Below the pieces are notes generated by a model. It was not told the DNA's origin and ran no database searches. It was given only the letters and a program-made list of their open reading frames with translations. A DNA stretch of 64,000 nucleotides from Hesseltinella vesiculosa (lineage: Eukaryota; Mucoromycota; Mucoromycetes; Mucorales; Cunninghamellaceae), in assembly GCA_002104935.1 (NCBI GenBank), contig MCGT01000008.1, forward strand, positions 682,001-746,000, read 5' to 3'. This document shows positions 16,061 to 35,492 of this stretch, piece after piece (position 1 is the first letter of the stretch; each line of letters starts with the position of its first letter). The translations under genes were made by a program, and so were the position numbers.

Positions 16061-16377
16061 CCCGGTTCGAAAAAAAACCCATATTTAGACATAGCAAGAA
16101 AAGTGTCATTTTTAACCAAATACTTACCTTCAAAGGGAATTTAAATAATTGTGAGCGATATATTTTTCTTTATATGGGTGATGGATTTTTTGAAAAAATA
16201 CTTTCTAAAAAAGTAGCAATTATACTTTTTAGGAAAGTATATTTTCAAAAAATCCATCACCCATATAAAGAAAAATATATCGCTCACAATTATTTAAATT
16301 CCCTTTGAAGGTAAGTATTTGGTTAAAAATGACACTTTTCTTGCTATGTCTAAATATGGGTTTTTTTTCGAACCCGG
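16061..16377. mobile_element. 317-bp near-perfect palindrome (hairpin or foldback element)
   Basis: Two arms of about 155 bp are reverse complements with only about three differences: one extra G at the outer edge and two substitutions near the centre. They meet at a loop of about six bases around 16219. The arms begin CCCGGTTCGAAAAAAAACCC and end CGAACCCGGG. No coding content. The near-identity points to a recent origin or to arm-to-arm conversion. It is either a foldback/MITE-type element or an inverted duplication. A transcript would fold into a long double-stranded hairpin. No target duplication found. Confidence 0.85.
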
Positions 16378-18228: not shown

Positions 18229-20455
18229 ATGAATAATCAAAAAGGAAAAGCCCCTGCTCAGCGATCCACTGTGAATAATGATCGCCTCCAACGTGTGCTT
18301 GACAATAACTCAGATATGCACTATGCGAGTCAAATGGTCCTGGCTCAAAGTATTGATCAACGACCCGTGAATACGACCAAATCATACGAAGCTAAACAAA
18401 AGGAATGGGTTGTAAGTATTATTTCTGCATTCTTCCACTTCATTGTAGTTAACAATAAATTTTCTTATTAGCAATGGTGTCGTGACAAAGGCTTTACAGA
18501 TGGTGAACTTGCCAGCGATCAGAAGCTTAATTATTTTTTGTCTGACTTTGTCATGAATCGTGGGCGCAAGTTGCGACGGAACAATGACGGAACCCCCATC
18601 CCTCTAGGCAAGGAATCAATACTTGCTTATGTAAAGGCTGTATCAGATATTTACAATCAGCAGCATGCACTTGGCACCAACACAAACGGACCAGCAAGAG
18701 GACCGCTTGTTAGGACATTCCTAGAAAATCTCGACAAAGAACGCGTCCGATCCAAACGCGCTAACTATGAAGACCGCGGAAAAAACACTCTGAATGACGG
18801 ATATACGGTGAAAGAGTTAGGCTTGGTCAGCACATACTACTTGACTCAAAAAAACAACCTTGTTGGCTGTCGCGATCGACTTTGTTTTTTATTAAGTCAT
18901 GCAATGCTATGTCGTAGCCAGAATGCTCTTGGTCTTCAGTTTGCAGACTTATTTGCTACGATTGTCGAGGATCAAGGTATGACCGAATGCATGGCTTTGG
19001 TAGCTACGATGAATTTTGGAAAGACCAACCAACATGGCAAAATCGAATATGGGTCATCTTTGCGGCATCGAGATCCTAATCTGTGCTCGGTGGGTGGTCT
19101 CGCGCTTTACTTTTTTGCAAGATTTCACCACCAAAATGAACCATTTCCGGATTTTACACGACGGGAAAACTGGTATGACATCTCTCTCTTTCCAGGAAAC
19201 AATGAAAAGACGCCAATCTCGTTCAGGACCCAGTTCAACTCATATGTGGAAGCGTTCAAAAAAGTTGGCATACGCACATCGAAAGTTACCCACGCCAACC
19301 GGAAGAGTGCGTTGAACATCATTGCTCAACAAGACGTGTCTGGTGACCAGCAAAGAAGAGTCGGACGATGGGGCACCGATCGCATGGTTGGTTGTTATGT
19401 GTCAAGTCTGCCGATGGAAGCAATGAAGGGCTTGGCTGGTTATGCCAACTTCCGCGGCAATTACTTTGTTACGCGGGCTGTGGTGCAGCCACCTTTGGAA
19501 TTACAACGCCTCGTATTCCCAAAAATTGAATATTGGATGGAAAGGTTCCATCGTGGAGATGCGATTCAAGACGACATAGCTGGCCCAAACTTCCTCGATC
19601 TTATGAATCGACTACGTGTCGTGCTTCTTCAGGTAAAAAAAATATATTAGAATGTTAAAGTTCGTTTTTCTAATAATTTAATAATGGTAGGACTCCGTTG
19701 TCTTGAAGAGGGATTATCCTGATTATTTCCTATGGACAAGTGAGATATTCGACACCGATTTATACAAGAAGTTTGAAGGAGAGCTACTTGCTTCTTTGGC
19801 CGAAAATAACGACGCTCTCTCCATAAACCAACGCATTCAAGTTGCCATGCCAGAATTGGTGTCATCTTTGAATGCTGGCTTTGAAGGTCTATCATCCAAT
19901 ATGGTTTCCATGAAGGAGTCCTTTGCGTCAGAACTTATGGAGATGAAAGAGGAACTTATGGAGATGAAAGGGGCGCATATGTCCGAAGCTCATGACGTCA
20001 GCAAGAAGATTGCTGAATTCTTTGCCATGGGGCACGAACGGTTTCCAACCAGCCATGATCCTCAGCAGTCAGCAACCACGCCAACATCTTCAATGACTGC
20101 TCCATCACCTATGCCATGCCCTACAACTACGACTACCCCTCTGCCATCTACAGCCCAGTACGTGATGAGCAGAGATCTCACCACGATCACGGATGTATGG
20201 AGAGAATATGCATCTGGTATCTCTGGAGGTCCTTCCGTCAGGTCCTTGGAACAATCCTATGGAACGGCATGGCGCAGAGATCGCAAGGAATCGCGTTTTT
20301 TCAGCAGACGTCTTGCACTTTACAGGGCAATCGAGGAAAAAGCAGTGAAAGACGCGATCCCTGAGGAAGAAGCCGCTCAATTTTTAGAGCATCAACGAGC
20401 CAGCAATGGCGTATCTTTGGCTAAATTCATAGCAAACATAAATATTGTTCAATAA
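18229..20455 (+). CDS. Crypton-type tyrosine recombinase with GCR1_C-like DNA-binding domain
   Basis: DNA transposon recombinase of the fungal Crypton (CryptonF/Ndc10-like) group. Three exons (18229-18411, 18472-19632, 19691-20455) join in frame to 702 residues without a stop. The catalytic set is complete: Arg209 in AMLCRSQNAL, His335 and Arg338 in THANRKSA, Trp361 in VGRWGTDR and Tyr370 in VGCYVSSLP. The nine-residue Trp-Tyr spacing equals that of Cre. Residues about 480-540 are a coiled coil with a duplicated ELMEMKE motif. Residues about 603-672 (SRDLTTITDVWREYASG, GGPSVRSLEQSYG, AWRRDRKESRFFSRR) match the GCR1_C domain. The group shares ancestry with yeast kinetochore protein Ndc10. GAGTCTC repeats on both sides and an 11-bp direct repeat outside them suggest the element's limits. 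It could instead be a domesticated gene, but its place among repeats favours a transposon. Confidence 0.88.
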
Positions 20456-20691
20456 TAAACTCGCAACCTTTGATGCTTAAAAAATGTTAGGAAGTGTCCA
20501 AAATTGAGTGTGTTAAATACGAAAAAAAAGGAAATTTCCAAAATTTTCTCGAAGCCGCGCAATTGCTAGAGCAACAACGATCAAACAGTGGCATATCTTT
20601 GAATAAATTTAGAGTCGGTACAAGGTAAAAAATAAACTTGTTGATGCTTAAAAAACGTTCGAAAATTGAGTGAAATTTCCAAAATTTTCTC
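20364..20691 (+). repeat. Degenerate tandem duplication of the recombinase gene's 3' end
   Basis: Sequence 20364-20550 (the last 30 codons plus downstream) is followed directly by a diverged copy at 20551-20691. Both begin GAAGCCGC, CAATT and a run encoding LEQQR/LEHQR-like residues, pass through TGATGCTTAAAAAA, and end GAAATTTCCAAAATTTTCTC. The second copy carries indels and is not coding. Confidence 0.8.
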
Positions 20692-20776
20692 GGGCACAGG
20701 TATTTCAGTGTCGGACTCACGCCAGCCAAATTTCTGAGTCTCCAGACTGAGACTGGGCTCAGCGCGGAGAAAATAC

Positions 20777-20787
20777 CCTCACAGTAT
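20777..20787 (+). repeat. 11-bp direct repeat, right (possible Crypton end)
   Basis: Identical to CCTCACAGTAT at 17867-17877. It follows GAGTCTC-type motifs at 20734-20760 and AGAAAATAC. If both repeats are true ends, the element is about 2.9 kb and does not include the Fanzor gene. Confidence 0.4.
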
Positions 20788-21629
20788 TTTGGTTCCAGGA
20801 GTCACAGCCAGATGCTAAAACAAGAATTGAGAAGAGGTGAGGATAAGTGGACGAGGATGAAGAGGTAATCCCGGATAGGTGACGATAGAAGATATTGCCA
20901 AAAAGAAGAAAGATATTTTATTGGGCAATTTTTTACTCTGTGTAACAGCCATTTCCGTGAGTTCTGGATGACTCCTATTCTTTTTGACAAAAATACTGTC
21001 GCTAACCAATCAAATCGATGTCATTTCGCGTTCTTTGAAAAGAGTAGTTGCGTTCGCTGAGTTTTTGTTCTCATAAATCGTGTACATGTAGCCGCTGTGA
21101 TATCGATAGCCCATGGAAGTGACACCAAGATATTGGTGCTCAGGGTTATTCCTTTGGCTCTGGTCATTTTAGGTGTTTTTTTTTGGGGGGGGGTATTGCT
21201 TATATCTTCGCTTTTTTTACTGATTTAACTTTCTAGCACTAGAAAATAATTTGGCGGTTGGTCGGTTGGTTTGCCTGCGAACAAAAGTTCATCCACAGCT
21301 CAAAAATAAACCTGACACGCGCGGAGGGATCATTTTTTAAAAAAGTCACGTTTTACATTTTTGGAAACTGAAATGTCACATAAACTTTTTGCATTGGCGA
21401 TATGGCACTCAGTTCGAAAATGTCCAGTACTTCCGCATTGATTGATAGAAATGTAGTCTGTATTCTGACGAAGCGCTGATGACAGAGGAGCATGAAGACC
21501 ACAAAGTTTCAAGTGAAACCGCGCACCCGATAGACGAATCAGGCACATGACGAGAAAAAACAAATAAAAGAATCCCTCAGCGGTTTTTTCCTTATTTACT
21601 TCTCTCCTTGCTTTTATTCATCGCTCACC
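20788..21629. other. Spacer between recombinase and Fanzor genes
   Basis: No gene recognised. It holds an inverted-repeat-family fragment (next entry), a G run at 21186-21193, and the presumed Fanzor promoter ending in TCACC directly before the ATG at 21630. Confidence 0.5.
21222..21320 (+). mobile_element. Fragment of the inverted-repeat element end
   Basis: Reads GATTTAACTTTC, CACTAGAAAATAATTT, GGTTGGTTTGCCTGC, CACAGCTCAAAAATAAACCTGA, in the same order and spacing as the right end of the 5.8-7.1 kb element. The extreme terminus is missing, replaced by CACGCGCGGAGG. Confidence 0.65.
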
Positions 21630-24600
21630 ATGACTATTGAAGTGTTTGAATTCAAAAGCTTAGAATATGAGCGTATTGAAGAACGTAGTGTTCAGGACGA
21701 AGACGACGAAGATCCTTGTAGGTGATTGATCTTTGGCATGAACAAAGAGCGGATGACTCACACATGACATTTACCCCTTGGTAGCGCCGAAAAGACAACG
21801 AACTGGGAGGTCGCGCTCGACAGCCAAAAGAAAACAAAATGTCGACGAGAAAATGATGAAGCAAGGGGCACGTGACGAATTCAATGCCAGTGTGAATCAA
21901 CGACGAGAGGATCAACCTCCGTGCCCAACATGCATGGCAGCCGCCGCGATCCTTGACCAAACTGGAGAAACAGAAGCCGCCAACGCTCGCCGGGCCCAAG
22001 CCAGAACCCACTCAAGATCATCAAGTAGCCAATGTCCGGACCACAAGGACCGACAACGAGTCCACAGCAAATCAACGCTCGGTGGTGTGACCAAATCCTA
22101 TACCCTGAAACACGGACTAAAAAACCTGATCAGGCACCCGGACTCCGCCGGCTCCAGCCTTGACGAATCCACCAAGACCAAGCTTATTGAGGCGGTCGAA
22201 AAAGTGGTTGACTTCAACACTGACATGACGATCAAAGCACACCTGTTCGCCAGATATTTCCTTACGACCGAACTTCACCAGCCTCAGCCCTCCCTGCCTG
22301 CCGCAATTTTCACGCAAATCTTCTTCACATAGATATTTCAGCTGCTCCTAGGGAAACCCATCACCAACAAAGCCACGCTGACTGCTGATTTTCGTGCCAA
22401 GCTCGAAACTAGCTTCCAGCAATTTCAAGGTAAAAAACGTATTATGTGCTCAGTCCTGGTGCTCACTTTTTATTTTCTCCGCAGCTGTCTATGGCCCAAA
22501 AGACGACAGTGACAGGCCCATCCCTTTTTGTAAGCCAGTCACTTCCACCTGTGGCAGACCAAATGTGGTGTTTTCACACGTCACGAATTCAACTGCTGTG
22601 GAATGTGCTACATGCTTCAAGAACCATGTGATCGAAGGATTTGAGGGCTTTACTACGACCTTCCTTGAAGCAGATCTCCTTCGGCGAATGCCAGTAAGCA
22701 TGGATAACTTTGATAGAAAGAGAGCACTCACCTTGTTTTATTTATAGGAGCTGAAGCGCGGGCACGGTCATGCCTATGTTGTCTACATGTATGCAGTCAT
22801 CGCCAACGACCCTAGCTTCCCCCCAGAATGGCCCACATTCAAGCATGTGAACGACGATCTGGAGAAGAAGGTCAAGGAATGTGCCACCAGCATTGTCCAG
22901 GACTTCCGGGCCATGATCGAGCCAGCCCTAACCAAAGTCGAACATGAATTACAAGAAGCATCATCAAGACGGGAGGAAGCCGCCAGGCGTCGACGATTTA
23001 CCTCTCCACACCAAGCCGCTGTAGCGTCGTCATCGACCTCTGCGGCTGCGCTCTCCGTCAGCTCACCTTCATCCTCAGCGACTGGGCCATCTACGCCTTT
23101 ACTCGGAGAACAAGACACGGCCTCGGAAATGTCTGTCGATGCGGCTACTGATGATCAAACCGTCGGGACCCTGGGTCTGTCGAATGTGAATCTCGAGGCT
23201 GCTGACCCTGACCTGCCTGACGTGACAACGTCCCGAATCACGATTTCAACAGCCACTCTCACCCGATTTCCACATCTGTTTTTGCCTGCCATTGCGACAA
23301 TGCTACAACGCCTCGAGGATTGGAACGCCGGCGATGAGTTACATGCTCCTTCTTCCCCACAAACCACTGCGCTTATCCCCTGGGTACGCCATTTCTTATC
23401 CAACGTCCCAGAATGGCATTTGATCAGGCCGCAGAAGCGATCCCGTTTAGTGTACGCAGTGACGAATATTATCAACGGTGATGCTTCCTTTGATTCCTCC
23501 CGCATGCCAGCGATTTTCAGTTCCAGTACGATTGCATCCATCCAAAGTCAAATTACACTTGCGAAAGAGGAGATCGCTGCCGGAACGTTTGCCCCTCCTA
23601 CGGTCTTCATCAAGCCATCTTCCCGCCTCTTCACAATCATGCCGGTGCCATCATTCAAGCGCCGTTATGCGAGATTCGACCCACAAAGCCTAAAAACACT
23701 GCTGCTGCACTTTGAGTTGACGGACCTCATACCAACGGCAACTTCCGATACAAACCCCACTGGTGGCCCTACCGTGTCCGACCCGATGTTTTCATTTTTG
23801 GATTTCACGAAGCTGCGAAAGTAAGTAGGAAGTGAAAAACAAAAAAAAAAAAAAGCAAACGTGTGTTTTTTTTCGCCTAGACACGGCGTGTTCGAGAACA
23901 CATTCCAGACAGATGGTTATGCTACCTCCTTTACCTTTAAAAAGGCCAAAGGCACGGCACTACCAAGGTTTTTGACCACAGAGGACATTGAGACGCAAGA
24001 TCTGGCTGGCTGCAAAGTGTGGGGCGTGGACCCAGGCGTCAATGAAGTTTTTGTTACTGTTGATGGCTGTTCAACTGATATCTATGACGACGACCCCACC
24101 AATACAGCGCCCGGTACCCGCCATCAAATTCGGAAATTTAGTGCAAATGAATACTACGACAAGGCTGGGTTCAACCGCACCAATGCCAAGATATCAAAAC
24201 GAACCACCGAAGACAGCATAGACCAATTAGCTACGTCTATTCCGAGCCCATGTACGTTGCACTTGGGAAACCTCGATCGGAACATCAAAGCTGTCCTGGT
24301 ATCACAAAATCAGCTCTGCGAGTTTTATGGCAAGCTGCTGCCCAGCCTCCGTTTTCTGAACTACCGTGGCCGCCAAAAAATGGACGAAGAAATGATCAAA
24401 ATACTCCTGTCCGGTGGTGAAAAGTATAGCAGCACAAATCAAGCCCAAAACCGTGCCAGCCTGGTCCCTGAGCATGGCCAAGACCAAGAGTCTCGCTGGT
24501 TGGAACCCGCGGAAGTCACAATGAACATCGATGCTGATGATTTGGCAACAAGCAATAACAGCCCGCCTCTAGCCCCGGCCGCGACAACCACGACTCCCCA

Positions 24601-25563
24601 CCTACCCTCGCATCACCAGCAAGTGGGATGGCAGTTGCAACAGCGACACCAATAAGTGATGGGCTCCCAGCCATTTCCCTTGCCATTCAAACGGCCGCCT
24701 CTGTAAACCATAGGGATTGGCCGGCAGCATCCAGCCCCAGCCATGCTACACCCATCCGTTTCAATTTCCGTGGCAAACACAGCAGCCAACATCGCGATTG
24801 CGATCGGTACAACTGGTGCGTCCGCTAGTGTCCACCCCAACCAGCCCTCAGCTACGGTTCGTCATCCTCAACAACCAGCTGCCACCATACAAACAACGGC
24901 CCCTCCACCATCGCGCCCTCCACCAACACCAATGCGGTCTCCACTAACACCAACACCAACACCAACACCAACACCAGTGTTCTCTCCACCAACACACTCT
25001 CCTCCGTCTGTGGCTAATGCAGTCGAAGTCACCAAAAAGTAAGTACCTGTTTTATCGCTGTCATGATTAGATACAACACTCCCTAAAACATGCTGATGAT
25101 GTTTTTTTTTAGCCCTTGGCGCCCCCTCCCAGGCGTCCCAACACCCCGTGAAACCGTGACCATTGTGTGTGTTGGCAACGGAGAATTCGGCCGCAAAAAC
25201 TTCCGCGGAAAACCAACTGGGCTGGCCACCCGCTTTCGCAAACTTGTCCAGCGTGCTGACCGCGCCGACCGCCTGGTGCTCGTGTCTGTGGACGAGCGAT
25301 GGACATCAAGGGTGTGCTCAAAGTGCGGACACCAAAGCTGCCAACCCATGCTGCTCAACTCGACGTCAAAATTGCACCCGGTGACAACCTGTTCAACTTG
25401 CTCATCGGTGTGGCAACGAGACATCAATGCAGCCAGAAACATCCGCGCTTTGGCCTTGATGTCCATCAACGGTGATCCTCGTCCCATTGTCTTGGACCAA
25501 AAGGTCGATGCCTCCTCTCTCGCTGCCGCTGCCTCACCAACAAGGGCTGAAACTGACCATTGA
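21630..25563 (+). CDS. Fanzor: eukaryotic TnpB-like RNA-guided nuclease, with one in-frame stop
   Basis: Homologue of IS605 TnpB, the OMEGA RNA-guided endonuclease family. Seven exons (21630-21717, 21785-22429, 22485-22693, 22748-23820, 23881-24622, 24728-25038, 25113-25563) join in frame to 1172 codons. Catalytic signature in order: RuvC-I GCKVWGVDPGVNEVFV with Asp722, a Fanzor-type VCVGNGEFG segment, VSVDERWTSRVC with Glu1084, a zinc ribbon (CSKCG and CSTC), and RuvC-III QRDINAARNI with Asp1126. SPKRQR plus STAKRKQ near the N-terminus resembles a nuclear localisation signal. Length, introns and the VDE-x-TS motif point to the Fanzor1 type. Codon 212 (22330-22332) is TAG, with no GT donor nearby to splice it out, so the copy may be inactive, read through, or an assembly error. 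The 24623-24727 intron is weakly supported (donor GTGGGA). Base composition is more GC-rich than the recombinase gene beside it. Confidence 0.9.
24550..25038 (+). repeat. Low-complexity Pro/Thr/Ala linker inside the Fanzor gene
   Basis: Between RuvC-I and the rest of the nuclease lies a long P/T/A/Q-rich insert, ending in an ACACCA tandem (about 24940-24980) coding alternating Pro-Thr. Two TAA codons (24653-24655 and about 24704) fall in the main frame and are avoided only if the proposed 105-bp intron is real. Such linkers tolerate indels, so frame damage here would be easy to acquire. Confidence 0.65.
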
Positions 25564-26935
25564 CCCCTGGTGCTCTTGTTGTGACCCTCCCCACCCCCCA
25601 CCATGTCGCATAGCAAAAATGCGATCGTTAACAGCTTTCGTAAGTGAAAAAAAGAGAGAATGGAACAATGGTCTCACTGCTTCATTGATATCCTTTCCTG
25701 CGATAATTTTATATCATCCACAATGTCATTTATTTCTTTTCATGGTCAAAAGTCCCGGCCATGATGGATTGTATGTGTGGTGGATGTAATTATTGCCAAT
25801 CAAGTAATACAAGGAGAGAGTGGAAGGGAAAAAAGCCGCTCACAAAAATTTCTTGGTTTCCGGGAAACTGTGCGTGTCATACTCGATATTTGACACTTGC
25901 GTGCGCGAGCTGCTGATTCATTGACCATTTCCACCTTTAACATAATGTCTGTTTAAATGCGAAACTTCCTGTGTTCATTGGGACTGAGACAATACCCTGT
26001 AATCTTGGAGCGTGAGCAAACAAACCCACTCGGAGGCTATTACAAATCTAATGAATCGGAAATATTTCATTTTTATACCGTGCAAAAAGTAGATTATGAA
26101 TATTTCTTTGTGTTCCCTTTGGTATGAAGGTCAAGAAAAGAGAAAACAGACTCCTTATTCTTAATTCCTTTCCTTGGGTAGTTTCCAAATCAAACCATCA
26201 AATGGCATGAACTAATGAGAAGGTCAGACACCACCGATAGGTGTCATTTTTTAAAGAAAAGGGGAGATGGACCTTGTTTAATAACAAATTGCCCAGACCC
26301 TGGAAGACTGGGTGCATATGACGATTCAGGTGTTCACCAACTTCGGCCAAAATGTGTCTTATCAATATGTCACGATTATCGGATCTTGGATGACCTCCTG
26401 CCTCCTAACCAATCCCGTTCTGCCCCTTTTACATTGCTTGCCCTTTCTCCTTTTTGGCAAGTTCCACTCTCACAGAATAACAAGCATCATTCTCGTCACA
26501 CACTTGTAGATTTTCATCCATTCTAAGTAGCCTCTATTTTTGTTACTGTACTCTCTTCTATCTATATGATCACATCCATTTCAATTAAAGTATAATGCTT
26601 AGATTGTTCTGACTGACGTCGGCGACTTCAATGTTATATTTCTACTCGTTGTATCTTCCTGCTCCTGCTGCTCATCACGCCGTTTGCTGCACGCCAATGT
26701 GACTTTCTGATTTCCTCGTTTCGTGCCTTTATTTGTTAGTCCGGATATTTCCTTCACCATTCAATACTAACAAACTTAAACTTACTTTTTTTTTGGCTTG
26801 GGAGAAAATTACATTATTGCATTGATGAATCCTTGGATATAACAAATACAGGCTTATTTTTTTAGGAAATTACGGAAAATGTTTATAAAAGTCAATACGG
26901 CGGGGTCTAATGCAGCATCGGTTTGCCACATCGCT
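25564..26935. other. Fanzor 3' flank and intergenic DNA
   Basis: No protein gene. In TnpB and Fanzor systems the guide RNA is usually read from the 3' end of the nuclease gene and beyond, so the first few hundred bases are the candidate guide-RNA region. A motif GACTGAGACAATACCCT at 25982-25998 resembles the GACTGAGAC and AATACCCT found past the recombinase. Beyond about 26100 nothing is recognised until the next gene. Confidence 0.45.
25606..25624 (+). ncRNA. Candidate structured element of a Fanzor guide RNA
   Basis: A perfect 6-bp stem TCGCAT/ATGCGA closes a 7-base AGCAAAA loop, starting 43 bp after the Fanzor stop codon. Position fits where the OMEGA RNA scaffold of TnpB-like nucleases normally lies. 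A stem of this size can arise by chance, so the call rests mainly on context. Confidence 0.3.
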
Positions 26936-27826
26936 ATGAAGTATCTGCTGGGAACTCTCGTGTTTATTTTCTGCCACCACTATCTACTCTCATACTTTGG
27001 CGTTTACGCCGATGATTGTGCCTCAACTCTCAATGTAACGACTATATATACCACACCCTTGGTAACTCAAACGCTTACTAACACGACACAAACCGTAACA
27101 AGTTATACCTATACCGAAACAGCTCTGGTTACGAGCGTAGTGCAGGCACAGACCGCTATCACAAACAATTTAACGACAACTACAGCCTTGGTTACCACTG
27201 TTCCAACGGCCGTCGCCAACACCACTGTGCCCATGTATACAGCAACAGACACGACCTATGCCACAGTAACAGATTACACAGCTTCCGTCAATGCCACTAG
27301 CACAAGTACCCAAATTTCCACTGCATCTTTCATGTCAACCCTAACCACAACAGTGGGTACCACCGTAGCTTCAACTAGTACAGACATAGAAACTTCAACC
27401 AACGTGCACATGAGTTTGTCATATGCAACGGCATATTCTCTCACTGTTTCTACAGTTAACGTGTCCAGCTGCAGTATTGTCCTTTCTAGATTCTTTTGTC
27501 GTGGGGTCACAGCAGATCTTAATCACTACGTCTATGAGATGACAAATGGGTTTTATAGCATCGATTCATGTGCGAGTTATTGTGTAGGAAAGTATGGGAC
27601 TGGAACTTGGTCAATGGTGCAAACAAATTCGGCCGCCGCAAATCTGAAGTGCCAATGTGCAAGTGGAACGTATGGAACTGCCCCTGATCCCAGTTACCCG
27701 TGCATTAACAACCCTTATGGTCCTGGTATGACTGGCCAAGAAGGAACTACTGGTTGGACCACGGGCAGTCCAACTACTGGAGGATCATTTTGGGCAACAC
27801 AGGGCAATACCACTGGAGCGTGCTAA
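26936..27826 (+). CDS. Secreted Thr-rich protein with Cys-rich (WSC-like) C-terminal domain
   Basis: Predicted extracellular or cell-wall protein of 296 residues. A hydrophobic N-terminus (MKYLLGTLVFIF and on to FGVYA) is a signal peptide. I chose the ATG at 26936 because the in-frame ATG at 26879 would put 19 polar residues before it. Residues about 30-185 are dominated by Thr, Val and Ser, an expected O-mannosylation region. The last 100 residues form a Cys-rich unit with about eight cysteines: RFFCRGVTADLNHYVYE, SIDSCASYCVGKYGTGTWS and LKCQCASGTYG. This resembles a WSC or similar carbohydrate-binding module, but the match is loose. A Gly/Thr-rich tail ends in GAC. There is no clear GPI signal. 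Single exon. Function unknown; wall or adhesion role inferred. Confidence 0.7.
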   Translation: MKYLLGTLVFIFCHHYLLSYFGVYADDCASTLNVTTIYTTPLVTQTLTNTTQTVTSYTYTETALVTSVVQAQTAITNNLTTTTALVTTVPTAVANTTVPMYTATDTTYATVTDYTASVNATSTSTQISTASFMSTLTTTVGTTVASTSTDIETSTNVHMSLSYATAYSLTVSTVNVSSCSIVLSRFFCRGVTADLNHYVYEMTNGFYSIDSCASYCVGKYGTGTWSMVQTNSAAANLKCQCASGTYGTAPDPSYPCINNPYGPGMTGQEGTTGWTTGSPTTGGSFWATQGNTTGAC

Positions 27827-29270
27827 AGTTAGCAAGCAATTCATTGATTTGAGCATATAAAAAGTAAACTCGTACGTATTACTCCCAATATATATCCAAA
27901 AAAAAAAAACGCTGTGTACCGGTAAGTGACTGGAGACATGGTGGGCGATAGATGTTTTTAAATAGTTGGCGACTGAGACAATAGCTTAAGGAGGCACCAG
28001 CAGCGGACGGAGACCGGATCATTTTTTCCTTTGTGAGCACCCTTCCGCAACCACCTTTTTTACCTTTTAGCTAAACTAGTCAGCATAAATACCATAGAAA
28101 CTCTCTATGACAGTCAAGAATGTCCTCTTGTATAGAATGAGCTATGGGCATATGAAATATATAATCATGCACCAGTACCGGTGTTTTGTCCGGGTAGTTT
28201 TTGGGTGACGCAATTAAGAAAAATATATATATAACAACCTTTTATTTAACGTTAGTGCACTATTAGGGAAAACGAAAAAGAAGGAGGTTCCTAGTATTCA
28301 GGTAATTTAGGTACTGTATTTGTGGGCTTACTAGATGTAAAGGCACACACGGTAATTATGCCAGTAGTCTGCAAGAATTAAACAAAGCCGAAAGAGAGGC
28401 GACCAAAGAACAGGGATAGAGAGTAAGAACGCGTACGCTTCCGTCTACTGCAATCCAGAGCTAATTTATTCAAAGAGTCTGTCCTGCTAAATATACGATA
28501 CGACCAGCTTGTGGATATTGTCATGGACACCCTTTGTGGCAAAGACCTTTGGATCCATGGGATATTGCGATTGATACTTCAATCATGTCTGAACGTCCTC
28601 CACTGTTCGTTTAATCTTGGGTTTTCAGGGCGTCCCAGCATACCATAACCCTTTTAACGAACTCTGTAAAATTGTGCGCAGTTTGGTACATTTTCGGAAA
28701 CAGCAATGAAGTTGATTTTGGACGCCACATATTGAAACAAGCCCAAACCGTGGAGCATCAATATTCAATCAAATGCTATTTGTTTTCAGGTAAAGCGATT
28801 GTTTTTAATATTCTAATAGGGTAAATAATTGATTTTACATGTATTTTACATGTATTTGATTTACTTTCTCGTGCGGTTCGGCTGGTTTGCCCGCTCAAAA
28901 AATTAATCAATTTCCGTCTACAGATGGTGGAAATCCGGGGTAGGTGTCAACACGTCAGTAACCCACCTACCTAATATAATGGTATGACACCAGCTCGTCT
29001 CAATTAGTGCTCAGAAGCATTTAATTCATCATGACAAACACATTCCGTATCATAAGGAAGCATTCATTCGTAGTTTTCTCATAACTTAACATTAGCTTTG
29101 AATGAAAGGGCAGGAATGAGGAAGTCTCCGATTAAATTACTTCAGGTTAACAGACGGTCGTAATCATGACATTCCTTTGAAAAGACTTTTTTCTTTATAA
29201 AAAAAATATGTTTAATAGAATACTGGGATATTGAGAATAGCGAACCTTATATTGCGTATAACTTAGCTCA
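27827..29270. other. Intergenic DNA between two secreted-protein genes
   Basis: No gene recognised. It includes GACTGAGACAATA at 27971-27983 (the same 13 bases as at 25982), an inverted-repeat-family fragment at 28858-28936, and the promoter of the large repeat protein. Confidence 0.45.
28858..28936 (+). mobile_element. Fragment of the inverted-repeat element terminus
   Basis: Reads GATTTACTTTCTCGTGCGGTT, GCTGGTTTGCCCGCT, then TTTCCGTC...GATGGTGGAAATCC, matching the right terminus of the 5.8-7.1 kb element with a small deletion. The end palindrome is retained in altered form. Confidence 0.6.
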
Positions 29271-32200
29271 ATGAAGTTGGCATTGGCAGCATACGCTGCA
29301 ATAATACTTCAGGTACTCTCGCTGTTTCACTTTGCAAATGCGCACCAAAGAGATAGTGGCGACTTAAAAAATGTCAAGGATATAACAAAGACTATCACGA
29401 TTTGCAGTTTTCCAAACAATCAAATTGGAACTTACACAAAAATCGTAAATTTCACGCCAATGATCACTACGACCGGTCCCAGACCAGGCACATCAACCAT
29501 CATTCTTGATGGTGCTGCCGTGGGTATTATCATTACCGTACAAGGTGGATATACTACCACAGTTCCCGGTAAAGCTCCTGGAACAGTTACTGCTACGTAT
29601 CCTGATGGTTTCGTTGTAACTGTAACCGTGCCCACCATGCAGTCGAGTACAGTTCCTGGGAGGGTACCTGGAACAACAACTGTCACAAAACCCAACGGAG
29701 AAATTGTAGAAATTGTCACCACACCAACAATCCAATCAAACACAGTGCCTGGCAGAATTCCAGGAACAACCACTGTCACAAAGCCCGACGGTGAGATTTT
29801 CGAAATTGTCACCACACCAACAGTCCAGTCAAGTACTGTTCCTGGCAAAATTCCCGGTACAACTACTGTCACAAAGCCGAACGGTGAAATTGTTGAGTTT
29901 GTCACTACCCCATCAATCCAGCTGACTACCGTACCTGGTAAAATTCCTGGTACAACCACTGTCACCAACCCTAATGGTGAGATTGTTCAAATTGTCACAA
30001 TGCCAACAATCCAGTCAAGCACTGTGCCCGGCAAGATTCCTGGAACAACAACTGTCACCAAGCCTGATGGTGAAATTGTCGAAATTGTCACCACACCTGT
30101 CATGCAGTCAAGTACTGTACCTGGCAAGATTGCTGGGACAACGATTGTCACAAAACCTAATGGTGAAATCGTCGAAATTGTTACCACACCAGTGATTCAA
30201 TCAAGCACTGTGCCAGGGAAAATCCCTGGAACGACAACCGTTACAAAGCCTGATGGCGAAATTGTCGAAATTGTTACCACACCAGTCATTCAATCAAGCA
30301 CTGTCCCTGGAAAGATTCCTGGAACGACAATTGTCACCAAACCCAATGGTGAAGTCATCGAAATCGTTACCACACCTACAATCCAGTCAATCACCATACC
30401 TGGAAAAATTCCCGGAACGACAACCGTTACAAGACCTGATGGTGAAATCGTCGAAATTGTTACCACACCAGTCATTCAATCAAGCACCGTCCCTGGAAAG
30501 ATTCCTGGAACGACAGTTGTCACCAAGCCCGATGGTGAAATTGTCGAAATTGTCACCGTGCCAATTATCCAGTCAAACACTATACCTGGCAAGATCCCTG
30601 GTACTACCACCATCACCAAGCCCAATGGCGAGATAATTGAAATTGTTACAACAGCAACAGTACAGCGAAGTACTGCTCCTGGTGATGCTCCTGGAACTAT
30701 TACATCGACCATGCCTGATGGGGAAGTTGTGGAAATTATTACCCAACCAAGAACACAATCAAGCACAGTCTCAGGGCATATTCCTGGAACAACAACAATC
30801 ACTAAGCCCGATGGTGAAATTGTGGAAATCGTCACTACTCCAATAACAGTAACATCCACTGTTCCTGGGAGCATACCCGGCACAGTAACTGTGACCTACC
30901 CCGACGGTCATGTCGATGTTACTATCACAACACCCACACCTGGCACTGTAACCGTGCCAGGCAATATTCCTGGCACAACTACCGCCACTTACCCCGACGG
31001 CCATATTGTTGTTACTATCACTACGCCTACCATTGCTACAACCACTGTACCTGGGAACATCCCTGGTACAACCACTGCTACTTACCCTGATGGCCATATT
31101 GTTGTAACAGTGACCACTCCAACCGCTGGAAAAACCACTGTGCCGGGCAGCATTCCAGGCACAACCACCGTTACCTACCCCGATGGTCATATTGAAGTAA
31201 CTGTCACCAACGCTACACCTGTCACCACCACTGTTCCCGGGAGCGTACCCGGCACAACAACTGTGACCTACCCCGACGGTCATATCGTTGTTAGTATCAC
31301 AACACCCACACCTGGCACTGTAACCGTGCCAGGCAATATTCCTGGCACAACTACCGCCACTTACCCCGACGGCCATATTGTTGTTACTATCACTACGCCT
31401 ACCATTGCTACAACCACTGTACCTGGGAACATCCCTGGTACAACCACTGCTACTTACCCTGATGGCCATATTGTTGTAACAGTGACCACTCCAACCGCTG
31501 GAAAAACCACTGTGCCGGGCAGCATTCCAGGCACAACCACCGTTACCTACCCCGATGGTCATATTGAAGTAACTGTCACCAACGCTACACCTGTCACCAC
31601 CACTGTTCCCGGGAGCGTACCCGGCACAACAACTGTGACCTACCCCGACGGTCATATCGTTGTTAGTATCACAACACCCACACCTGGCACTGTAACCGTG
31701 CCAGGCAATATTCCTGGCACAACTACCGCCACTTACCCCGACGGCCATATTGTTGTCACCGTCACAACCCCTGCACCTGCCACCACCACTGTACCTGGAA
31801 GCATCCCTGGCACAACCACCGTTACCTACCCCGATGGCCATGTCGTTGTTACTGTAACCTCTCCTGAACCTGCCACCACTACTGTGCCAGGTAGCATCCC
31901 TGGCACGACCACTGCTACCTACCCCGATGGTCATGTTGTGGTCACCGTCACCACTCCTGCACCTGCCACCACCACTGTACCTGGCAGCATCCCTGGCACA
32001 ACCACTGCTACTTACCCCGATGGTCACGTCGTTGTTACTGTCACAACGCCTACCGCTGGCACTGTAACCGTTCCTGGCAGCATTCCTGGCACAACCACTG
32101 CTACTTACCCCGATGGTCACGTCGTTGTCACTGTCACAACGCCTACCGCTGGCACTGTAACCGTTCCTGGCAGCATTCCTGGCACAACCACTGCTACTTA

Positions 32201-35200
32201 CCCCGATGGTCATGTCGTAGTCACCGTCACAACCCCTGCACCTGCCACCACCACTGTACCTGGCAGCATCCCTGGCACAACCACTGCTACCTACCCCGAT
32301 GGTCATGTTGTGGTCACTGTAACCACTCCTGAACCTGCCACCACCACTGTGCCAGGTAGCATCCCTGGCACAACCACTGCTACCTACCCCGATGGTCATG
32401 TCGTTGTCACCGTCACAACCCCTGCACCTGCCACCACCACTGTACCTGGCAGCATCCCTGGCACAACCACTGCTACCTACCCCGATGGTCACGTCGTTGT
32501 TACTGTCACAACGCCTACCGCTGGCACTGTAACCGTTCCTGGCAGCATTCCTGGCACAACCACTGCTACTTACCCCGATGGTCATGTCGTAGTCACTGTA
32601 ACCACTCCTGAACCTGCCACCACCACTGTGCCAGGTAGCATCCCTGGCACAACCACTGCTACCTACCCCGATGGTCATGTCGTTGTCACCATCACAACCC
32701 CTGCACCTGCCACCACCACTGTACCTGGCAGCATCCCTGGCACAACCACTGCTACCTACCCCGATGGTCATGTCGTAGTCACCGTCACAACCCCTGCACC
32801 TGCCACCACCACTGTACCTGGAAGCATCCCTGGCACAACCACCGCTACCTATCCCGATGGTCATGTTGTGGTCACTGTAACCACCCCTGAACCTGCCACC
32901 ACCACTGTACCTGGCAGTATCCCTGGCACGACCACTGCTACCTACCCCGATGGTCATGTTGTTGTTACTGTGACAACCCCTGCACCTGCCACCACTACTG
33001 TACCTGGCAGCATCCCTGGCACAACCACCGCTACCTACCCCGATGGTCATGTTGTGGTCACTGTAACCACTCCTGAACCTGCCACCACCACTGTGCCAGG
33101 TAGCATCCCTGGCACAACCACTGCTACTTACCCCGATGGTCATGTCGTAGTCACCGTCACAACCCCTGCACCTGCCACCACTACTGTACCTGGCAGCATC
33201 CCTGGCACAACCACTGCTACCTACCCCGATGGTCATGTTGTGGTCACTGTAACCACTCCTGAACCTGCCACCACCACTGTGCCAGGTAGCATCCCTGGCA
33301 CAACCACTGCTACCTACCCCGATGGTCATGTCGTTGTCACCGTCACAACCCCTGCACCTGCCACCACCACTGTACCTGGCAGCATCCCTGGCACAACCAC
33401 TGCTACTTACCCCGATGGTCACGTCGTTGTTACTGTCACAACGCCTACCGCTGGCACTGTAACCGTTCCTGGCAGCATTCCTGGCACAACCACTGCTACT
33501 TACCCCGATGGTCATGTCGTAGTCACTGTGACCACTCCTGAACCTGCCACCACTACTGTGCCAGGTAGCATCCCTGGCACAACCACTGCTACTTACCCCG
33601 ATGGTCATGTTGTGGTCACCGTAACCACTCCTGCACCTGCCACCACTACTGTACCTGGTAGCATCCCTGGCACAACCACTGCTACTTACCCCGATGGTCA
33701 TGTTGTGGTCACCGTAACCACTCCTGCACCTGCCACCACTACTGTACCTGGTAGCATCCCTGGCACAACCACCGCTACTTACCCCGATGGTCATGTTGTT
33801 GTTACTGTAACCACCCCTGAACCTGCCACCACCACTGTACCTGGCAGCATCCCTGGCACAACCACTGCTACCTACCCCGATGGTCATGTTGTGGTCACCG
33901 TAACCACTCCTGCACCTGCCACCACCACTGTTCCTGGTAGCATCCCTGGCACGACCACTGCTACTTACCCCGATGGTCATGTTGTGGTCACTGTAACCAC
34001 CCCTGAACCTGCCACCACCACTGTACCTGGCAGTATCCCTGGCACAACCACTGCTACCTACCCCGATGGTCATGTCGTTGTCACCGTCACAACCCCTGCA
34101 CCTGCCACCACCACTGTACCTGGTAGCATCCCTGGCACGACCACTGCTACTTACCCCGATGGTCATGTTGTGGTCACTGTAACCACCCCTGAACCTGCCA
34201 CCACCACTGTACCTGGCAGTATCCCTGGCACAACCACTGCTACCTACCCCGATGGTCATGTCGTTGTCACCGTCACAACCCCTGCACCTGCCACCACCAC
34301 TGTACCTGGCAGCATCCCTGGCACAACCACTGCTACCTACCCCGATGGTCATGTCGTAGTCACCGTCACAACCCCTGCACCTGCCACCACCACTGTACCT
34401 GGTAGCATCCCTGGCACGACCACCGCTACCTACCCCGATGGTCATGTTGTGGTCACCGTAACCACTCCTGCACCTGTCACCACCACTGTACCTGGCAGCA
34501 TCCCTGGCACAACCACCGTTACTTACCCCGATGGTCATGTCGATGTCACTGTAACCTCTCCTGAACCTGCCACCACTACTGTGCCAGGTAGCATCCCTGG
34601 CACAACCACTGCTACTTACCCCGATGGTCATGTCGTTGTTACTGTCACAACGCCTACCGGTGGCACTGTAACCGTTCCTGGCAGCATTCCTGGCACAACC
34701 ACTGCTACCTACCCCGATGGTCATGTCGTTGTTACTGTTACAACTCCTGCACCTGTCACCACCACAGTACCCGGACCATCCCCTGGTACGACAACGGCAA
34801 CGTACCCCGATGGCCATGTTGAAGTAACTGTTACAACTCCAGCCAACACATTCACAGTCACTACTCCTGGACCTAGTGCAGGAACGACTACAAACACCCT
34901 CTCTGGAGGTACTGTAGAAATCGTTATAACTACGCCTTGTACGACAACTTCCTTTTCGACGGTTCTTGCCACAGCCCCTACAACAACGTCTTCTGCTTTG
35001 GTAACTGCCTCTGTTACAGAGCACACTCTGACGACTTCAACTACATCAACAACTACCGATATCACTGGTACAACTACAGTTACTAGCATCGCAGCAACGC
35101 AAACTACAGTGTCCACAACAATGTCAGATATGACTTCTACTATTCCGTTGTATACTTCTTTGGAGACAGGCACCACAACAGTACCTGATTACACAACCAC

Positions 35201-35492
35201 AGTGACTTCGCTTTCAGTGGCTACGGGTCTAACTGTCACAAGTGAAACAAGTTTAATTACTGATACAGCTACCTCTACTGAGACATCCGTTGGCACTGAA
35301 ATGACAACTACTACGCTTGACACTTCTTCAACTCAGTTCGCTACGCTGACTGTCCCTTCGATTAGCTACGAAACTACGACACTTCCGGGCAGTACTATCT
35401 TCACGTCCTCAATTTCAACATTCACTGGCCCAGAAACACCCCCAGCTTATACGTACACTTACGCCTACACAACAATTGTTATCGTTCCATAG
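29271..35492 (+). CDS. Giant secreted repeat protein (about 57 copies of a 31-residue unit)
   Basis: A single-exon 2073-residue protein. MKLALAAYAAIILQVLSLFHFANA is a signal peptide ending about residue 24. From about residue 90 to 1860 it is a tandem array of 31-residue (93-bp) units. The C-terminal type reads TTTVPGSIPGTTTATYPDG followed by HVVVTVTTP plus two or three variable residues. The N-terminal third carries a variant with TVPGKIPGTTTVTKPDGEIV and EIVTTP. The alternating hydrophobic and Thr pattern, plus invariant PG and PDG turns, suggests short beta strands with heavy O-mannosylation potential. The last 200 residues are Ser/Thr-rich and end in TIVIVP. I see no convincing GPI-anchor signal. 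Architecture suits a fungal adhesin or wall spacer; no named family recognised. The neighbour at 26.9 kb is also Thr-rich and secreted. Confidence 0.85.
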   Translation: MKLALAAYAAIILQVLSLFHFANAHQRDSGDLKNVKDITKTITICSFPNNQIGTYTKIVNFTPMITTTGPRPGTSTIILDGAAVGIIITVQGGYTTTVPGKAPGTVTATYPDGFVVTVTVPTMQSSTVPGRVPGTTTVTKPNGEIVEIVTTPTIQSNTVPGRIPGTTTVTKPDGEIFEIVTTPTVQSSTVPGKIPGTTTVTKPNGEIVEFVTTPSIQLTTVPGKIPGTTTVTNPNGEIVQIVTMPTIQSSTVPGKIPGTTTVTKPDGEIVEIVTTPVMQSSTVPGKIAGTTIVTKPNGEIVEIVTTPVIQSSTVPGKIPGTTTVTKPDGEIVEIVTTPVIQSSTVPGKIPGTTIVTKPNGEVIEIVTTPTIQSITIPGKIPGTTTVTRPDGEIVEIVTTPVIQSSTVPGKIPGTTVVTKPDGEIVEIVTVPIIQSNTIPGKIPGTTTITKPNGEIIEIVTTATVQRSTAPGDAPGTITSTMPDGEVVEIITQPRTQSSTVSGHIPGTTTITKPDGEIVEIVTTPITVTSTVPGSIPGTVTVTYPDGHVDVTITTPTPGTVTVPGNIPGTTTATYPDGHIVVTITTPTIATTTVPGNIPGTTTATYPDGHIVVTVTTPTAGKTTVPGSIPGTTTVTYPDGHIEVTVTNATPVTTTVPGSVPGTTTVTYPDGHIVVSITTPTPGTVTVPGNIPGTTTATYPDGHIVVTITTPTIATTTVPGNIPGTTTATYPDGHIVVTVTTPTAGKTTVPGSIPGTTTVTYPDGHIEVTVTNATPVTTTVPGSVPGTTTVTYPDGHIVVSITTPTPGTVTVPGNIPGTTTATYPDGHIVVTVTTPAPATTTVPGSIPGTTTVTYPDGHVVVTVTSPEPATTTVPGSIPGTTTATYPDGHVVVTVTTPAPATTTVPGSIPGTTTATYPDGHVVVTVTTPTAGTVTVPGSIPGTTTATYPDGHVVVTVTTPTAGTVTVPGSIPGTTTATYPDGHVVVTVTTPAPATTTVPGSIPGTTTATYPDGHVVVTVTTPEPATTTVPGSIPGTTTATYPDGHVVVTVTTPAPATTTVPGSIPGTTTATYPDGHVVVTVTTPTAGTVTVPGSIPGTTTATYPDGHVVVTVTTPEPATTTVPGSIPGTTTATYPDGHVVVTITTPAPATTTVPGSIPGTTTATYPDGHVVVTVTTPAPATTTVPGSIPGTTTATYPDGHVVVTVTTPEPATTTVPGSIPGTTTATYPDGHVVVTVTTPAPATTTVPGSIPGTTTATYPDGHVVVTVTTPEPATTTVPGSIPGTTTATYPDGHVVVTVTTPAPATTTVPGSIPGTTTATYPDGHVVVTVTTPEPATTTVPGSIPGTTTATYPDGHVVVTVTTPAPATTTVPGSIPGTTTATYPDGHVVVTVTTPTAGTVTVPGSIPGTTTATYPDGHVVVTVTTPEPATTTVPGSIPGTTTATYPDGHVVVTVTTPAPATTTVPGSIPGTTTATYPDGHVVVTVTTPAPATTTVPGSIPGTTTATYPDGHVVVTVTTPEPATTTVPGSIPGTTTATYPDGHVVVTVTTPAPATTTVPGSIPGTTTATYPDGHVVVTVTTPEPATTTVPGSIPGTTTATYPDGHVVVTVTTPAPATTTVPGSIPGTTTATYPDGHVVVTVTTPEPATTTVPGSIPGTTTATYPDGHVVVTVTTPAPATTTVPGSIPGTTTATYPDGHVVVTVTTPAPATTTVPGSIPGTTTATYPDGHVVVTVTTPAPVTTTVPGSIPGTTTVTYPDGHVDVTVTSPEPATTTVPGSIPGTTTATYPDGHVVVTVTTPTGGTVTVPGSIPGTTTATYPDGHVVVTVTTPAPVTTTVPGPSPGTTTATYPDGHVEVTVTTPANTFTVTTPGPSAGTTTNTLSGGTVEIVITTPCTTTSFSTVLATAPTTTSSALVTASVTEHTLTTSTTSTTTDITGTTTVTSIAATQTTVSTTMSDMTSTIPLYTSLETGTTTVPDYTTTVTSLSVATGLTVTSETSLITDTATSTETSVGTEMTTTTLDTSSTQFATLTVPSISYETTTLPGSTIFTSSISTFTGPETPPAYTYTYAYTTIVIVP
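29540..34860 (+). repeat. 93-bp tandem coding repeat array
   Basis: About 57 in-frame units of 93 bp. Units in the last two thirds are nearly identical at the DNA level, while the first 15 or so are more diverged, implying recent expansion or conversion in the 3' part. Within the array, blocks of several units recur, for example the four-unit 372-bp block at 30932-31303 repeated at 31304-31675. Confidence 0.9.

Follow-up and report, generated by a model that had tools for sequence, protein, structure and literature searches.

A degenerate Fanzor1 gene of Hesseltinella vesiculosa, its mobile relatives and a candidate stem loop of their guide RNAs

Fanzor proteins are eukaryotic relatives of the CRISPR-type RNA-guided DNA cutters. 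We describe a gene of this type at positions 21630-25563 (+ strand) of a stretch of 64,000 nucleotides (nt), hereafter the window, from the mucoralean fungus Hesseltinella vesiculosa (Cunninghamellaceae; contig C78, 682001-746000); the window was searched within the whole 27.05-Mb genome of 85 contigs. Judged from its sequence, the locus very probably belongs, as a degenerate copy, to an old family of Fanzor1 transposons, which we call family C: Fanzor1 by descent and no longer working.

According to the available part of its description, SpuFz1 of Spizellomyces punctatus (8gkh) is a Fanzor1 whose element has inverted ends and duplicates TA, no transposase was found within these ends, and its omega-RNA lies at the right end; in all this it resembles what is seen in, or proposed for, the Hesseltinella elements. 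SpuFz1 is, however, a protein of 633 amino acids (aa) in a single reading frame, whereas the window gene has 1207 codons in six exons, with a low-complexity stretch of 202 codons in RuvC. Most Fanzor1 proteins have 600-700 residues, and a RuvC insertion named FRI is found only in Parasitella and Rhizopus (PMC11423790, accessible text). The FRI-bearing Fanzor1 proteins of Mucorales are comparable to ours in host order, in extra sequence within RuvC and in a guide-RNA scaffold made only of stem loop 1 (SL1) and a small stem loop 2 (SL2). Unlike the folded, cyclophilin-binding FRI of about 100 aa, the window insert is longer and of low complexity, and is likened to FRI by position only. Further mucoralean Fanzor1 transposons are MCi-2, MCi-4 and MCi-5 of Mucor circinelloides and ROr-4 of Rhizopus (PMC3627910, accessible text); these make duplications of 11-12, 9 or 6 base pairs (bp), whereas the sister families A and B of Hesseltinella have mariner-like ends with TA. 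By similarity, the same gene family includes H. vesiculosa DM01DRAFT_1409196 and DM01DRAFT_1372391 (family A), DM01DRAFT_1377999 and DM01DRAFT_1376804 (family B), Cunninghamella blakesleeana P0006 and Halteromyces radiatus P0007, all annotated as hypothetical, uncharacterized or unnamed. Two database proteins of H. vesiculosa are 98% and 96% identical to the family-A protein across the scored region. The motif DPG and the zinc-ribbon motif are kept in P0001-P0004 and P0006, while P0007 as annotated lacks both.

The Fanzor descent proposed in an earlier, sequence-only reading of the locus is borne out by comparison. In a profile hidden Markov model search, a check suggested there, the last exon matches PF07282 (TNB domain) at 4.2e-12, with 46.5 bits against a cut-off of 26.3. 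Against the guided_TnpB model of NCBIfam, whose cut-off of 100 bits is set for a whole protein, it scores 34.8 bits (1.1e-8). The molecular fingerprint of Fanzor, in the available text of PMC10711439, consists of DPG and an alternative glutamate six residues before the zinc finger. Both are present in the window gene, DPG of RuvC-I as GVDPGV (codon 722) and the RuvC-II glutamate, whose shift the sequence-only reading had remarked, as E1119-RWTSRV-C1126, six residues upstream of the zinc ribbon. The C4 zinc ribbon is followed by the RD of RuvC-III (CSKC...CSTC-SSVWQ-RD), and the TDG motif of the WED domain, named for Fanzor1 in the accessible part of PMC10711439, occurs as QTDGYATS with its T at residue 682. 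A profile of relatives with ten rows (seven proteins and three pieces of the window gene), searched against PDB, had SpuFz1 8gkh as its top match at 4.9e-8, mainly over the stretch after RuvC-I; a second stretch at the zinc-ribbon end was weak (6.8 alone). The annotated family-A relative P0002 by itself likewise found SpuFz1 first in PDB (6e-4). We conclude from these similarities that the stretch 21630-25563 descends from a Fanzor1 gene. As the reading frame is not intact in the six-exon model, we class this copy as Fanzor1 by descent and not as a working Fanzor1.

Some observations speak against this assignment. Searched alone against PDB, the last exon retrieves Cas12m (1.9e-5) and LaTranC first, and the Fanzor1 of Guillardia theta only at 0.52. 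The AlphaFold model of P0002, meant to show whether the acidic residues cluster in a RuvC fold, is too poor to use, with a mean predicted local distance difference test score of 35.7 and a predicted template modelling score of 0.27, and weighs on neither side. Finally, the Fanzor/TnpB consensus allows 125-275 residues from the RuvC-I Asp to [TS][TS] (PMC3627910, accessible text), and the window gene, with 399, falls outside this range. The same distance amounts to 455 in family A, whereas two family B proteins, at 244 and 206, and the Cunninghamella protein, at 257, stay inside the range. The long spacing results from the low-complexity insert, which is also present in family A but not in family B or Cunninghamella, and we treat the published range as descriptive, not defining.

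Our model of the window gene runs from ATG 21630 to TGA 25561-25563 on the + strand. Exon 1 (21630-21717, MTIEVFEF...) ends at an intron position found in family A as well, and MTIE begins both proteins. Exon 2 (21785-22429) is 50% identical to family A across 216 residues. Exon 3 (22485-22693) follows the intron 22430-22484, the exception among five introns of which the other four also occur in family A. Exon 4 (22748-23820) rests on the model and the family-A alignment. Exon 5 (23881-25038) contains the TDG motif, the RuvC-I Asp722 and then the low-complexity stretch, and exon 6 (25113-25563) contains the RuvC-II Glu, the zinc ribbon, the RuvC-III Asp and the PF07282 match. The landmarks of the sequence-only reading, from the ATG through GVDPGV with Asp722, VDERWTSRVC, CSKCG, CSTC and WQRDINAARNI to the TGA, are all there in the order it gave. 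Besides these, an N-terminal CPTC...CPxH motif at 21922-22050, common with family A (PCPTCM...CPSHK), may represent an extra zinc site.

An open gene of seven exons, the number given in that reading, was not confirmed: six exons were modelled, and three in-frame stops interrupt them, TAG 22330-22332 (codon 212, exon 2), TAA 24653-24655 (codon 930) and TAA 24704-24706 (codon 947), the latter two in the low-complexity stretch of exon 5. Asp722 (24029-24031) keeps its number, while the residues then counted as Glu1084 and Asp1126 become Glu1119 (25294-25296) and Asp1161 (25420-25422). The difference of 35 residues is equivalent to 105 bp removed, and the segment 24623-24727 (GT...AG, 105 bp, weak donor GTGGGA) fits as the extra intron of the earlier model. 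Its removal would bypass both TAA codons and leave TAG 22330 unaccounted for.

This bears on whether the gene is still alive, with the segment 24623-24727 spliced out as an intron and the TAG at codon 212 being an assembly error, a strain polymorphism or a site of readthrough. In favour of a living gene, the net frame is intact on either side of the stops; as it is also kept across the two TAA codons, an unseen intron may lie there, and for the TAG a mistake of the assembly is conceivable. The copy also keeps its catalytic residues, its zinc ribbon and an intact SL1, and the three stretches in which the protein aligns to the intact family-A protein, at 50, 36 and 58% identity, hold no further break. 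On the other hand, family A codes through the counterpart of 24623-24727 without an intron, and the donor is weak. The TAG (FFT*IFQLLLGK versus FFTSVFQLLMGK in family A) lies within a conserved block that aligns gaplessly on either side, which makes an intron a poor explanation for it, and the closest copies, L025 and L026, carry frame-breaking gaps. A living gene is therefore unlikely in our view, and we favour a degenerate copy.

The substitution pattern in family C points the same way. Between the window copy and L025, substitutions at codon positions 1, 2 and 3 number 74/382, 66/381 and 106/382, with 35/213 outside exons, so the excess at third positions is mild (106/382 versus 140/763 at positions 1 and 2 together). 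The alignment to L025 has several frame-breaking gaps, and L026 has such gaps likewise. The 3' noncoding stretch is no less conserved than the exons in this comparison, yet not clearly more. The pattern suggests weak past constraint followed by decay. That the host has domesticated the gene and keeps it for a cellular role would agree with the fact that, of the family-C copies examined, the window copy alone can be aligned from one end of the gene to the other; the in-frame stops, the only mild codon-position bias and the multi-copy mobile relatives make such a role highly improbable. Matches to the last exon within the same genome amount to 71 stretches, itself counted. The sequence-only reading had left it open whether the locus once encoded or still encodes a guide-RNA-dependent nuclease. 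The former is supported; the latter is not, in view of the three stops in the six-exon model and the decayed closest relatives.

Families A and B are, judging by their copies, recently moved, near-identical elements with mariner-like ends and TA duplications. In family A, identity to L011 across some 4.9 kb is 97.5-98.3% for copies L012-L016 and 96.4% for L017, while L018 (96.9%) covers the last 1.7 kb only. An intact Fanzor of 1298 aa in five exons is encoded by L016, the sole copy spliced. In family B, L021 is matched at 97-98% identity by L022 and L028 along roughly 4.5 kb, and at the same level by L023 and L024 along roughly 4.0 kb; the reading frames of L021 show a break. With a slash marking element edges (and, below, splice boundaries), the ends read TA/CAGT[CG]TTTC on the left and GGAAA[TC]ACAG/TA on the right. 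A pattern search recognised the left end in seven of 15 copies, once with a changed base, and the right end, following a GTAAGT motif, in 14; the 15 are family A, B and A-like copies out of 20 fetched. In the left flanks of both families no target-adjacent motif beyond TA was seen by eye, seven left ends being too few for this purpose. In the L016 element, reading frames of 60 aa or more were looked through by eye, with no Pfam scan, and no second long gene was noticed. Mobilisation by a transposase acting in trans would fit; Fanzor1 in mariner elements without a transposase is already known (PMC3627910, accessible text). One site of another repeat, whose uninterrupted homologue lies at window 14611, is occupied in L013 by both a family-A element and a mariner-type repeat of 775 bp that has TACAGYGTTTCC-like ends. 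The ends of the 775-bp repeat resemble those of the Fanzor elements, and the two may have a transposase in common. This repeat (L013, 1801-2574) contains a transposase-like remnant and recurs dozens of times across the genome. In L016, an apparent partial copy of exon 2 (FASVFQLLMGNDTANKKTVTEN) lies at 2740-2880, ahead of the family-A gene, like an older N-terminal piece left behind.

Close to the stop codon of these genes we detected a hairpin that would be new as a candidate part of the guide RNA. In the window it lies at 25605-25625 (+ strand), with a 7-bp stem and the 7-nt loop AGCAAAA. Hairpins of this kind, with 5-8 bp and a loop of 7-8 nt ending in AAA, occur in families A, B and C (window), in L009 and L019, and in the distant L061/L063, L062 and L065. 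Relative to the end of the stop codon the hairpin starts 29 nt before in family A and L010, 0-2 nt after in family B, L009 and L019, and 41 nt after in the window; these distances exclude L061-L065, in which the stop was not located. Stem sequences vary among most families, L009 being like L019 and L062 like L065. In ten aligned sequences all seven pairs change on both sides and 90% of the cells are paired, a level reached by none of 500 shuffles, while slid pairings gave at most 50%. These ten come from 12 candidates: L009 (8-nt loop) and L061 (bulged stem), each 22 nt long, were left out. L063, near-identical to L061, and L064, without a hairpin, were not added, nor were the near-identical L022-L024, L028 and further family-A copies; L015 and L016, both near-identical family A, are among the ten. 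Broken pairs number two each in L020 and L065 and one each in L025, L021 and L062. By a further measure, the number of extra pair types, 53 of the 500 shuffles reached the value of the real alignment.

How often such a hairpin arises by chance can be seen from random 60-nt stretches of the fetched loci, Fanzor elements included, 119 of 4000 having one. Within 1 kb around the stop, SL1 is the only or the longest hairpin of this form in four of six loci scanned; the exceptions are L009, with a longer hairpin inside the coding region, and L021, with two others equally long. L061-L065 were fetched after the rule had been formed, and all but L064 show the hairpin (four of five, L061 and L063 being one family). 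The scans found no match in L026, L027 and L017. In family A, L016 compared with L010 and L020 respectively shows 96% and 93% identity in the 45-nt hairpin block, 72% and 75% in the coding stretch ahead of it, 71% and 67% in the stretch behind it, and 94% and 89% in the last 18 nt. In the alignment of this block, gaps set by the aligner leave GTAAGT matched at four of six positions in L010 and L020, both of which contain GTAAGT. In L062 and L065, members of distant Fanzor families, SL1 is followed by a longer second stem loop, GCTAAC..GTTAGC and GCTAA..TTAGC respectively, the inner stem being drawn by eye.

The accessible text of PMC11423790 gives SL1 of the GtFz1, SpuFz1 and PpFz1 omega-RNAs as always 7 bp, SL2 as the only element between SL1 and guide in SpuFz1 and PpFz1, and 75, 90 and 150 nt as Fanzor1 omega-RNA lengths. 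The window hairpin, a pattern in the DNA, matches the 7-bp SL1. From it to the right homology edge, common to L025 and L037, a candidate omega-RNA scaffold would span 25605-25703 (+ strand); its 99 nt fall among the lengths known for scaffold and guide together. The guide of the window copy, if any, would begin at about 25704. Less favourable is the outcome of unaligned folding, in which five right-end sequences of 105-106 nt (SL1 being included only in those of the window and L025) and window 25564-25720 folded no better than shuffles.

Behind the hairpin the window contains GTAAGT (25640-25645, + strand), a motif resembling a 5' splice site. GTAAG[TC] occurs at most 90 nt after the hairpin in nine of 11 sequences, L015 being taken together with L016; L025 (GTATGT) and L061 lack it. 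Its background in the window is about 0.00063 per base. In several families the motif also forms one side of SL2, the 3' arm, and structure may be the reason why it is conserved. Towards the right end, A, L010, L020 and B have a branchpoint-like CT[AG]AC, a polypyrimidine tract and TAG, 28 nt in all four, which leaves 50-56 nt to the last letter of the right-hand TA; in family B a second acceptor ends at the terminal ACAG. The right ends read ACAG/TA, whereas symmetry with the left-end CAGT would predict ACTG/TA. The C-terminus of the public model P0001, as we read it, joins CC/GTAAGT to ATACAG/TA exactly at the right end of copy L014. This junction may be an artefact of the gene finder, and the frame of L014 near the end differs from that of L016. 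Joined at ACAG/TA, the family-A RNA folds into SL1 and an SL2 that incorporates the TA duplication (UAGGG-CUUU-CCCUA), whereas family B joined likewise gives no such SL2. Target-site duplications within other Fanzor1 RNAs have been described (PMC10711439, accessible text).

These splice-site-like motifs of the sister families, also new here, raise the tentative possibility, to which we assign a rather low probability, that the host spliceosome splices the guide RNA of families A and B from a 5' site after the SL1/SL2 scaffold to a 3' site near or at the right end. Such splicing would bring the distant scaffold beside the flanking guide. Family C keeps the 5' motif in the window, and no acceptor was found in the window, L009 or L019 within the 164-300 nt scanned. 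The available parts of PMC10432273, PMC11423790, PMC10711439 and PMC3627910 do not mention a spliced Fanzor guide RNA; words on splicing occur there in a reference title (PMC10432273) and in a list of cellular processes and a reference (PMC11423790). IStron-like splicing of the whole family-A element was considered on account of GGGTAAGTTT near its left end and set aside, no such sequence being seen where family B begins on the left. Should the splice sites prove functional, the making of Fanzor guide RNAs would require the spliceosome. RNA-guided transposons would thereby be tied to RNA processing by the host, and anyone employing such Fanzors as tools would need to allow for splicing. Taken by itself, the window copy is one more Fanzor1, and very probably a dead one; the greater interest is in the genome around it. 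Several Fanzor families share this one small fungus, and two of them include near-identical copies that moved recently, which makes the guide-RNA structure readable by covariation and allows duplication, guide and empty site to be compared copy by copy.

On the left side of the family-C element, 20986-21629 (+ strand) is homologous to L044-L047 and represents the upstream part of the element, which lacks roughly its first 30 nt on this side. Relatives on C6 and C28 extend further left, to the motif GTGCTTCCAACAARCAATGTCGCA, of which the genome has 13 occurrences with no more than three mismatches (reversed control, none) and which was not found in the window. As TACA or CACA precedes it in five of the 13 (L053, L054, L056, L057 and L058), the family-C left end is probably a mariner-like TA/CAGTGCTTCC. 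The remaining eight, without TACA or CACA, include L046 and L047, the copies aligning furthest into the window element. On the right side, the window copy, L025 and L037 are alike up to ..CCTTTCCTGCGA (window 25703) and then diverge. By eye, L009 and L037 have some common sequence beyond the equivalent of this point, and 25703 must be taken, to the disadvantage of our delimitation, as a homology edge of three copies and not as a demonstrated terminus or target duplication. In L037 (1501-1591) only the last ~92 nt of family C are matched, with no Fanzor match in the locus, which resembles the ghost elements of Spizellomyces.

Left of the element lies a repeat of about 200 bp (20785-20985, + strand). 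Elsewhere in the genome it forms six inverted pairs, 1.8-3.7 kb apart, so it is probably one end of another transposon with long terminal inverted repeats; at its outer edge it meets the Fanzor element, slightly inward of the latter's left end. Beyond it stands a Crypton tyrosine-recombinase gene (18472-20455, + strand; NDC10_II 9.6e-48, GCR1_C 1.6e-25) within a repeat whose right edge is at about 20786-20790. Together with the further repeats, this confirms the mobile-element island of the sequence-only reading. The Fanzor and Crypton genes are 1.2 kb apart in the same orientation, and a partial Crypton transposase is contained in MCi-2A (PMC3627910, accessible text), so one might think of a single composite element comparable to MCi-2 of Mucor circinelloides. 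Four other Crypton copies (C24, C35, C47 and C14; 97-100% identical), however, all end at the equivalent of window 20786-20790, and no Fanzor match was found beside them. Moreover, another repeat separates the two genes, and the sister Fanzor families have mariner-like ends. We consider a composite extremely improbable and have rejected it. The neighbouring Crypton is, by these comparisons, an independent insertion of a very recently active tyrosine-recombinase transposon, three other copies of its recombinase exon being identical at a rounded 100%.

The history we propose is the following. The living family-C element would have encoded a zinc-ribbon RuvC nuclease. An omega-RNA would have come from the 3' end of the element, starting at the hairpin after the stop and crossing the right end into flanking DNA, which would serve as guide. 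Cutting of a matching empty site would let repair copy the element back, in analogy to the copy-back model of TnpB (PMC10432273, accessible text), with a transposase possibly supplied in trans by mariner-type elements, as the ends of the sister families suggest. The window copy can presumably no longer make the full protein, and its left end appears to have been broken by another transposon, with the Crypton beside that transposon.

Rfam searched with window 20000-27000 gave two small nucleolar RNA matches below their gathering scores, which we take as chance, and a pattern search of viral contigs returned 11 stretches with no relative among them. Elsewhere in the window, 16061-16377 is a near-perfect inverted repeat of the foldback type, its 155-nt arms being 97% complementary and 7 nt apart. 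Tandem TTTVPGSIPGTTTATYPDGHVVVTVTTP-like repeats make up one frame of 2076 aa at 29262-35492, whose product is, at a guess, a cell-surface repeat protein.

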